Of a stretch of DNA of 33,971 nucleotides, positions 212 to 22,978 are shown piece after piece (the first letter of the stretch is position 1; each line of letters begins with the position of its first letter). Made by a program: the position numbers and the translations under genes. Under the pieces are notes generated by a model. That model was given only the letters and a program-made list of their open reading frames with translations, searched no databases and was not told where the DNA came from. The stretch covers positions 21,712-55,682 of the forward strand of contig JADFZM010000004.1 in NCBI GenBank assembly GCA_015232535.1, read 5' to 3'. Source of the DNA: Candidatus Omnitrophota bacterium (GTDB lineage Bacteria; Omnitrophota; Gorgyraeia; Zapsychrales; Zapsychraceae).

Positions 212-290
212 TATTTCGGCAACCCAGCCTCCCTTAATAAAGGGACTGTCGGCTTTCCGTCCCCCGGTTACCCGAGGTTTGGCTTTGTCG
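212..290 (-). promoter_or_regulatory. GEMM-type (cyclic di-GMP-I class) riboswitch aptamer
   Basis: The minus strand reads in order: CAAACC; a stem closed by a GUAA (GNRA) tetraloop (272-277 with 262-267, loop 268-271); GGGACGGAAAGCC (compare the family's GGGACGCAAAGCC); a third stem (231-235 with 240-244); then GGCUGGGUUGCCGA (compare the family's GGGUUNCCGA end). The order of elements, the GNRA loop and the conserved blocks match the GEMM family, which senses cyclic di-GMP or, in variants, cyclic GMP-AMP. The closing stem has one mismatch. Ligand choice cannot be read by eye. The controlled gene would lie to the left of base 1. Confidence 0.78.
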
Positions 291-326
291 TACTCTTGAT
301 TTTTAAAGAACGTTTACCCAAAAGAA

Positions 327-21283: not shown

Positions 21284-22960
21284 TTACATCTCTGTGATTG
21301 AAACATCTCCGGTGATAATATGCGGCGTTAAAAAGATAACAAGTTCAGTCTTTCTTACAGAGTCATCTTTGTTCCGGAAAGCAATCCCCAGAAGGGGAAT
21401 ATCGCCTAAAAGCGGGACTTTCTTGGTTGTTTTTATTTTTTCTTCCTTGATCAAACCGCCGATTATTATAGTTATGCCGTCTTTAACCATCACCGTCGTT
21501 TCGGCCTCGGAAGTTTCGACCACCGGAATCTTATTATTATTGCTGGTCTGTACCGTATCGGTCACAGCGCTTACCTCGGGTTTTATTTTCATGGTTATAA
21601 AACCATCGTCATTTATAGTCGGAGTCACATAAAGCTTAACCCCTACTTCGATAAAATTGACAGTTTCGGTGTTTACCGCCGGCCCGGTGGTAGGGTATGT
21701 GGTTGTAGTCGTAACATACGGCTCCGTTGCCCCAACAAGGATCCTGGCTTCTTTATTATTTACCGTCGTGATGTGCGGCGAAGATAAAATATCTGTTGTC
21801 CCAACAGTCTGCAGTGCATCGAGTATTACCTCATAATCGTCTTTATTAATCGTGCCGACGCTCAATTCGCCTTGCTTTTCCGTATCAACGATATTACTAA
21901 AGCTATTGGTAAGCTTCATCCTGTGGAAATCATTGACTATGGCTTTCCAGTCAACTCCGAGCTTTGTTTCATCGCTTAAAATGATCTGAACAATCTTGGC
22001 CTGTATCAGGACTTCCTTGTCTTTGTGGTCAAAAACTTTTATAAGCTCGCCTATTTGCTTGATCTTTGATTCGGTGTCCGACACTATGATGCGGTTTGTC
22101 CTTAAGTCAAACTTTATCTTGCCCAGATCCGGTGTTAATGCCTCTGTAATCTTTCCTGAAATGTCATCTGCAAGAGCATAATTTAGCTGAAAAACTTCCG
22201 TCTTCACCGGCAAATCCACCTTGGCGATCACCGCCATCATCTCTTCAATCTTCTTGGCATTGTCCATAAGTATCAGCGATTGGGATTTATTGTCGACCAC
22301 AACTTTCCCGCCGACGCTCTTTATCTGGTTTAAGATCCCCTCCATATCCTTGGCGCTTACATGGATTAGCTGGATTATTCTTGTCTTGGCCTCCTGCCCA
22401 AATTTGACACCGTATTTGGCCTCGTATTCGGCGGCGGTCATGACTTTTATGACATCTTTTTCCTGCTCGAAAGCCCATCCGTTTGAATCGACTATTATCC
22501 TTAAGGCTTCCAATACGTCGATGTTCCTTAGATATATCGTAACTTTGCCCTGCACGGTTTTCGAGGCAAAGATGTTCAATCCGCTTTTCTGAGAGATCAG
22601 CTTGATCATATCGGAGACCTCCATGCTTTTTAGGTCCAGAACATCAAGGGTGCTTGTTTTCTTCTCAGGCTGGGCAACGGGCGCTTTTTCTTGCGCCGCT
22701 TGCTGCTGAGGCTGATTATCGGCTATCTTCGCTTCCTCCGACATAACCCCGGGACAAAAAACACAAAACGCCGCGATAATAAGATATACAGCTAATTTAA
22801 TCTTAATATCGGGAGTTTTGCGAAATTCGCAATTCTTTTTCATTCTGAGCCCGCAGGACGAAGAATCTCTTAGAGCAAGAGATCCTTCACTACGCTCAGG
22901 ATGACAGAATATGGTATTTTTCAACAGTCCCATATTGCTCAAAAATTTATCGTCTGTCAT
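21284..22960 (-). CDS. Secretin (type II / type IV pilus family outer-membrane channel)
   Basis: A 558-residue secretin. After the N-terminal hydrophobic segment (about 54-71, ending FCPGVMSEEA) come an STN-like domain (DVLDLKSMEVSDMIKLIS...), two secretin N-type domains (...TRIIQLIHVSAKDMEGIL and TEVFQLNYALADDISGKI), and the C-terminal beta-domain with VPLLGDIPLLGIAFR and LVIFLTPHII. Secretins form multimeric gates for export or pilus passage. AAGGGG lies 8 bases before ATG 22960. The first 40 residues are odd: they include a translated HPERSEG repeat (22841-22906), so the export signal begins unusually late. A shorter reading from the Met in LRMKKN is possible. Neighbours are GspC-like and ExeA-like genes. 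Confidence 0.88.
   Translation of the reverse strand: MTDDKFLSNMGLLKNTIFCHPERSEGSLALRDSSSCGLRMKKNCEFRKTPDIKIKLAVYLIIAAFCVFCPGVMSEEAKIADNQPQQQAAQEKAPVAQPEKKTSTLDVLDLKSMEVSDMIKLISQKSGLNIFASKTVQGKVTIYLRNIDVLEALRIIVDSNGWAFEQEKDVIKVMTAAEYEAKYGVKFGQEAKTRIIQLIHVSAKDMEGILNQIKSVGGKVVVDNKSQSLILMDNAKKIEEMMAVIAKVDLPVKTEVFQLNYALADDISGKITEALTPDLGKIKFDLRTNRIIVSDTESKIKQIGELIKVFDHKDKEVLIQAKIVQIILSDETKLGVDWKAIVNDFHRMKLTNSFSNIVDTEKQGELSVGTINKDDYEVILDALQTVGTTDILSSPHITTVNNKEARILVGATEPYVTTTTTYPTTGPAVNTETVNFIEVGVKLYVTPTINDDGFITMKIKPEVSAVTDTVQTSNNNKIPVVETSEAETTVMVKDGITIIIGGLIKEEKIKTTKKVPLLGDIPLLGIAFRNKDDSVRKTELVIFLTPHIITGDVSITEM
22841..22906. repeat. HPERSEG-type palindromic repeat inside a coding region
   Basis: The minus strand runs from TGTCATCCTGAGCG to GGGCTCAGAATG with an internal AAGAGAT-type inverted repeat. 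In the secretin frame it is read as CHPERSEGSLALRDSSSCG, the familiar peptide of a repeat found between genes in many bacteria. Here it lies inside the open frame, between the start region and the signal/membrane segment, without breaking the frame. Confidence 0.88.
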
Positions 22961-22978
22961 TATATCTTTCCCCTTGAT

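Follow-up and report, generated by a model that had tools for sequence, protein, structure and literature searches.

A MITE-like element enclosing a REP-like palindrome lies in frame in the secretin gene of a Candidatus Omnitrophota bacterium

Introduction

Selfish DNA lying in frame within bacterial genes is best known from Rickettsia, where the Rickettsia palindromic elements (RPEs) were reportedly described by Ogata in 2000 and 2002. Extracts of two papers characterise RPEs as palindromic repeats of about 150 bp, found in frame in unrelated genes (PMC10969869), and mention that proteins whose N-terminus carries RPE-1 are reportedly expressed in vivo (PMC3733652). The occurrence of REPs inside genes is reported, in excerpted text of the latter article, for the CGTC-tagged REPs, short palindromes with CGTC, or often TGTC or CCTC, as a terminal tag, whose families are defined there by a stem of 8-9 bp and a loop of 4-5 nt (Di Nocera 2013, PMC3733652). 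Among the MITE-like repeats of enterobacteria, ERIC, RU-1, RU-2 and RU-3 are likewise short and, according to portions of one account, provide open frames within annotated genes, including that of a putative exported protein (Delihas 2007, PMC2759123).

Here we describe an element in Candidatus Omnitrophota that appears to work like the RPEs, in that it is inserted in frame in unrelated genes; the likeness is one of behaviour, drawn from descriptions, and not of sequence kinship. It differs from them in its 16-bp inverted ends and 5-bp duplications, and in its hosts, which are Omnitrophota bins and not Rickettsia. The resemblance to the ERIC and RU repeats, which occur in other hosts, is also by description and not by sequence. 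In open-licence PMC full text, "HPERSEG", the peptide motif by which the element was recognised, gave no match, a search for a frame-neutral in-frame MITE (multiple of three, target-site duplication) returned ciliate work only, and one for an Omnitrophota MITE returned only unrelated work.

The secretin gene and its insertion

The window, as we call the whole 33,971-nt stretch of DNA analysed, carries at 21284-22960 (minus strand) an intact open reading frame of 558 codons for a secretin of the GspD/PilQ type (Pfam Secretin, E 1.2e-50; GspD and PilQ are the best NCBIfam matches, each below its cut-off). The product is 69% identical to that of a congener (G001) over residues 78-555, and the second-best match to it in the window's own genome (G000) is far weaker (E 6e-56). 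The original prediction placed an HPERSEG repeat in frame within this gene, and we indeed find the peptide CHPERSEGSLALRDSSSCG there, downstream of the ATG at 22960 and ahead of the signal peptide's hydrophobic core (LAVYLIIAAFCVFCPG, residues 56-71, 22748-22795, minus strand). The N-terminus reads MTDDKFLSN-MGLLKNTIFCHPERSEGSLALRDSSSCGLRMKKNCEFRKTP-DIKIKLAVYLIIAAFCVFCPGVMSEEAK, where hyphens bound the element.

The repeat is thus real, but it is merely the core of a longer, transposon-like unit, and its extent had been misplaced at 22841-22960: the inserted unit is a MITE-like element of 121 bp at 22811-22931 (minus strand), whose in-frame reading starts at the third base of codon 10 and ends with codon 50. 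Its ends are 16-bp terminal inverted repeats with the consensus GGGNCTGTTGCRAAAY, represented by GGGAGTTTTGCGAAAT at 22811-22826 (plus strand, two mismatches to the consensus) and GGGACTGTTGAAAAAT at 22916-22931 (minus strand, one mismatch), and it is flanked by the two copies of a near-perfect target-site duplication, ATATC at 22806-22810 and ATATT at 22932-22936 (both plus strand, 4 of 5 bases shared). With the unit and its 5-bp flanks so placed, 22937-22960 reads as original gene sequence. The HPERSEG palindrome forms the inner REP-like dimer of the element, two arms facing each other at 22840-22904 (minus strand), encodes HPERSEG...LRM and is predicted to fold into a stable RNA hairpin. 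The element is MITE-like in the inverted repeats at both ends, the constant size of the duplication, and the short, multicopy sequence without a transposase gene; indeed, the element encodes no genes of its own.

Element and duplication together add 126 bp, or 42 codons, after codon 9 and ahead of the signal core, and leave the frame unchanged. The window copy has a single stop-free frame among its six; it is the one used in the secretin, and the copy in the gene for MoeA is in the same frame. Residues 8-54 of the secretin match translated element copies in other genomes (best E 3.3e-12), several of which contain stops. From its end mismatches (two and one) and its identity of 72-76% to its nearest relatives in G000, we take the window copy not to be recent.

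The inner arms recall CGTC-tagged REPs in their tags, in facing each other as dimers and in the AT at the stem base. On 30 inner arms of G000 the tags are CGTC in 19, TGTC in five, CCTC in one and other in five (24 of 30 thus being CGTC or TGTC), while the two arms of the window carry TGTC and TTTC. The stems are, however, shorter than the 8-9 bp of those families, the three typed arm sequences folding into five pairs, an internal loop and two pairs, and we therefore rejected an assignment of the inner palindromes to CGTC-tagged REPs on stem length, despite the likeness in tag and dimer.

Elsewhere in the window, positions 1-98 hold a perfect 49-bp tandem duplication, and 214-292 (minus strand) a c-di-GMP-I-GGC riboswitch, which lies away from the element and is the only feature detected by Rfam at the gathering threshold over the whole window. 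A repeat search within the window gave no HPERSEG-containing family among the families shown; it was the genome-wide search that revealed the repeat.

The element family and its lengths

In the 2.2-Mb genome G000, a draft of 210 contigs, the arm motif TCATYCTGAGC occurs 30 times, compared to once for a reversed-pattern control, so the repeat is not a product of chance. Its copies lie mostly outside clear genes, in agreement with the earlier view of it as a repeat normally found between genes. Six pairs of ends like GGGNCTGTTGCRAAAY are present, each exactly 121 bp apart, and a seventh copy (contig C23) is interrupted by the contig end. Among the five other paired copies in this genome, 5-bp duplications are perfect in three (ATTAT, ATTAT and ATCAA) and 4/5 in one, and none is left around the MoeA copy. 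At the end of contig C188 (L064), a contig break falls inside a REP arm, within an open frame of 503 residues.

In a single scan of named genomes, 46 stretches showed the end-plus-arm pattern; they came from several Omnitrophota bins, a Bacteroidales bin and some Clostridia. The ends alone, at no more than one mismatch, gave 38, 95 and 29 hits in the three Omnitrophota genomes G055, G056 and G058 (none for the control), and 121-bp copies are also present in G056, G057, G058 and G059. The sharing of the 121-bp element, with the secretin matches, makes Omnitrophota the likely affiliation of G000. The copies sampled are mostly from Omnitrophota bins, with partial sets of hits for G055, G056 and G058 and one locus each for G057, G059 and G060. 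The sampled loci hold 82 end pairs with spacings of 40-420 bp, and 38 of these have an exact 5-bp duplication; exact duplications of 4 bp occur in two, of 6 bp in three, and of 3 or 7-10 bp in none. We left out the clostridial hits, whose pairs show no 5-bp duplications at these borders and which may represent another element. In L110, L114 and other clostridial loci, similar ends, both preceded by AAAA, enclose the same TCATYCTGA arms, possibly as a sister element with longer ends.

PF01609 matches were found in 8 of the 10 genomes searched, and in 20 fetched PF01609 loci with short flanks no end pair encloses a transposase, so that these yielded no autonomous parent with the ends of our element. 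G023 has an end motif at a distance of about 130 bp from an open reading frame for a DDE transposase, with one end seen before the contig stops; this recalls DDE insertion sequences of the IS5/IS982/IS1182 type, from which our case differs in that the loci examined hold no complete parent with the element's ends. Of 55 genomes, 54 contain no match to the G023 protein, which we treat as a lead only.

The lengths of the elements are biased. Among the 55 pairs whose duplication has at most one mismatch, length plus 5 bp is a multiple of three in 44, the lengths seen at least three times being 121, 130, 139, 142 and 181 bp, and 62 of the 76 elements chosen for clustering (with pairing and clustering cut-offs of our choosing) are frame-neutral in the same sense. 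The bias extends to copies outside open reading frames (39 of 49), and frame neutrality is therefore a property of the family and not merely of survivors in genes.

Two explanations have to be weighed here. We give an even chance to descent from a few founders, in place of selection for coding compatibility, as the source of the family-wide frame-neutral lengths. One cluster comprises 26 copies, of which 24 are 121 bp long; survival in genes alone does not explain the 39 neutral copies outside open reading frames; and the rule is broken in 6 of the 17 interior-similarity clusters and by five of the eight copies in a cluster split between 181 (three), 182 (three) and 191 bp (two). Against founders alone, the modal length is frame-neutral in the remaining 11 of 17 clusters (binomial p 0.008 against one third), and the main cluster of G055 combines a 142-bp form (12 copies) with variants longer by 33 and 36 bp (175 and 178 bp), all frame-neutral; a 153-bp element of G055 outside that cluster is not. 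These figures are suggestive only of selection for frame-neutral length, as clusters may share history. That the family is frame-neutral by design, its footprint kept a multiple of three and its ends stop-free in the frames used, is a possibility we put forward tentatively.

Copies inside other genes

We counted as lying inside genes those elements of at least 90 bp that sit in an open reading frame with no fewer than 150 residues and, on either side after removal of the element, no fewer than 30, which selects 16 of 73. At 13 of these 16 sites the frame is read through (p 1e-5 against an expectation of 0.27 for a random copy, strand and phase, and 9e-4 against 0.40 for these copies); the exceptions are L185, L186 and L243. 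With a margin of 8 residues, 15 of 24 sites read through (p 2.5e-4 against 0.27 and 7e-3 against 0.36) and nine do not. One copy, that in MoeA, entered the set manually once it had been seen in frame; without it the count is 12 of 15 (p 3e-5 against 0.27 and 2e-3 against 0.40). Duplications at the 13 read-through sites have at most one mismatch in eight cases, two in three and four in two, and the in-gene copies use all three forward phases.

The following host genes are recognisable: 1) in RNase Y it covers residues 160-193, between RNase_Y_N and KH; 2) in PriA, residues 124-181, where it separates the 3'-binding domain from the helicase part that follows; 3) in MoeA, about residues 356-396, where it follows the MoCF domain and precedes domain IV, the Pfam match of the latter being just under the cut-off; 4) in the polymerase III delta-prime subunit, residues 76-134, where an alignment to the gamma-subunit structure 1njf proceeds to template residue 72 and resumes from 76, query residues 72-145 falling between; and 5) in a CHASE2-SpoIIE protein, residues 185-243, within CHASE2 itself. 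The glutamine synthetase copy (L094) was counted as inside its open reading frame, the Pfam match of which begins after the element, and may lie upstream of the true start. The open reading frames at L193, L213, L216, L232 and L184 have no Pfam match and that at L244 has below-cut-off matches only, so these are less certain as genes. In another Omnitrophota bin (G057, contig C6, L289-L305), an open frame of 57,099 codons, which spans 1-171297, has no withheld bases and runs off the contig start, contains a 121-bp copy in frame at 87039-87159 with a perfect TTATT duplication.

Where translation of the secretin starts

The export signal had been placed about 50 residues into the protein; the core now starts about 55 residues after M1, and without the element the distance would be 13. 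Usable orthologues number 28, the window's own locus and L017, which a contig end truncates, being set aside from 30 loci, and in every one of the 28 the nearest ATG precedes the core by 3-21 residues. The shared N-terminal extension that the original prediction named as refuting an insertion is absent from all 28. Neither the exact core nor the end motif of the element occurs in any of 29 orthologue loci, the HPERSEG peptide is missing from the orthologue N-termini compared, and the congener G001 has no N-terminal extension and no GTCATYCTGAGC anywhere in its genome.

Two secretin loci deserve separate mention. In G005 (L024), whose genome is without GTCATYCTGAGC, the n-region is longer, with ATG codons 21 and 23 residues before the core, and its sequence MRMKKICDDN recalls the LRMKKNCEF of the window, a likeness that is probably coincidence. 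In G025 (L006), a REP-like palindrome, ATCATCCTGAAGCCCGAAGGGCAAAGGAT, adjoins the secretin just before the stop that precedes its open reading frame, so the secretin junction may have been hit more than once.

Between the element and the core there is no ATG, GTG or TTG, and the start used before the insertion consequently lay upstream of the element; M1 is the obvious candidate, with a TTG at codon 7 as sole alternative. This argument is firmer than that from the strength of the ribosome sites. M1 (22958-22960, minus strand) is preceded by AAGGGG at about 22970-22975 and has the best ribosome site of the candidates upstream of the core, with anti-SD pairing of -7.6 kcal/mol, compared to -1.9 for M10 and -2.5 for M40, the ATG of MKKN (22841-22843, minus strand), although such values are a weak guide here: the median over random window positions is -3.0, their 5% quantile is -8.5, and a score of 0 is obtained for 4 of the 16 other window genes. 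M40 itself lies within the element, at the foot of the hairpin: the palindrome is predicted to fold into a long stem that ends just before this ATG, which would leave the ribosome-binding region for M40 paired.

The original prediction left two options, a later start, for example at LRMKKN, or a tolerated cytoplasmic extension; the second is the better supported, by sequence alone, and the first would place the start inside the element. A start supplied by the element, with translation from residue 40, a normal signal peptide and an untranslated leader upstream, nonetheless deserves consideration, unlikely as we hold it to be. It would put the start 16 residues before the core, within the orthologue range and with an ordinary n-region, and weak ribosome sites are common among the window genes. 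Passages of Di Nocera 2013 (PMC3733652) argue that many N-terminal REPs are untranslated. In G057, a 145-bp copy with ATGAT duplications immediately precedes the evident start of a lipoyl ligase gene, where it is probably a leader only; the secretin differs from that case in that no usual start codon downstream of its element could be original. Against a start at MKKN stand the weak ribosome site, the pairing of its upstream region in the hairpin stem, and the intact M1 with its own ribosome site, in frame, from which initiating ribosomes would read through.

Element copies can, by the look of their junctions, also bring a start codon of their own. AT is a frequent ending of the duplications (21 of 52 on one side, 17 of 52 on the other) and G is the first base of the element, so that an ATG (MGLLxN...) in the HPERSEG frame is a frequent result of insertion; examples are the junctions at window 22931-22933, L182 and L287.

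The reading we favour, and consider probable, is that a 121-bp non-autonomous transposon, a MITE enclosing a REP-like dimer, inserted in the secretin gene and that the extended n-region is translated and tolerated. The element would have entered just after codon 9 with production of a 5-bp target duplication, and the gene would have stayed open by virtue of the 126-bp footprint and the one stop-free frame in the orientation of insertion, the n-region of the signal peptide thereby gaining 42 codons. Translation would still begin at M1, the ribosome unwinding the hairpin; the 55-residue n-region would remain cytoplasmic, its end, RMKKNCEFRKTPDIKIK, keeping positive charges before the core, and the signal would still be used for export. 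The family as a whole would be selfish DNA, retained within genes chiefly at sites where the frame is read through.

Two further alternatives are very improbable. Many copies in G000 appear by eye to be REP-only, without ends, as though the HPERSEG palindrome (REP dimer) alone were mobile and the surrounding inverted repeats coincidental, but six copies share one length and identical borders, the duplications abut the inverted repeats, and in G056 these ends bound elements in the same range of sizes that lack the TCATYCTGA arm. An inactivated secretin gene or a repeat assembly artefact, conceivable in a draft of 210 contigs given that repeats break assemblies, is just as hard to reconcile with the intact open reading frame, its conservation in the congener and an insertion that has its own near-perfect duplication.

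Significance

An element with inverted ends and target duplications inserts in frame, mostly in Omnitrophota bins, into genes that include those for RNase Y, PriA and a clamp-loader subunit of polymerase III. In it, REP-like palindromes are part of a transposon structure; for CGTC REPs this question was left open, in the part of the article concerned, by Di Nocera et al. (PMC3733652). For annotation, it means that the true start needs checking wherever an HPERSEG-like N-terminus is encountered. Whether the length of a mobile element is under selection for frame neutrality is now testable and, if the tentative reading of frame neutrality by design is true, we would have here a mobile element that has adapted to life within protein-coding sequence across Omnitrophota and that introduces peptides of about 35-60 residues into core enzymes.
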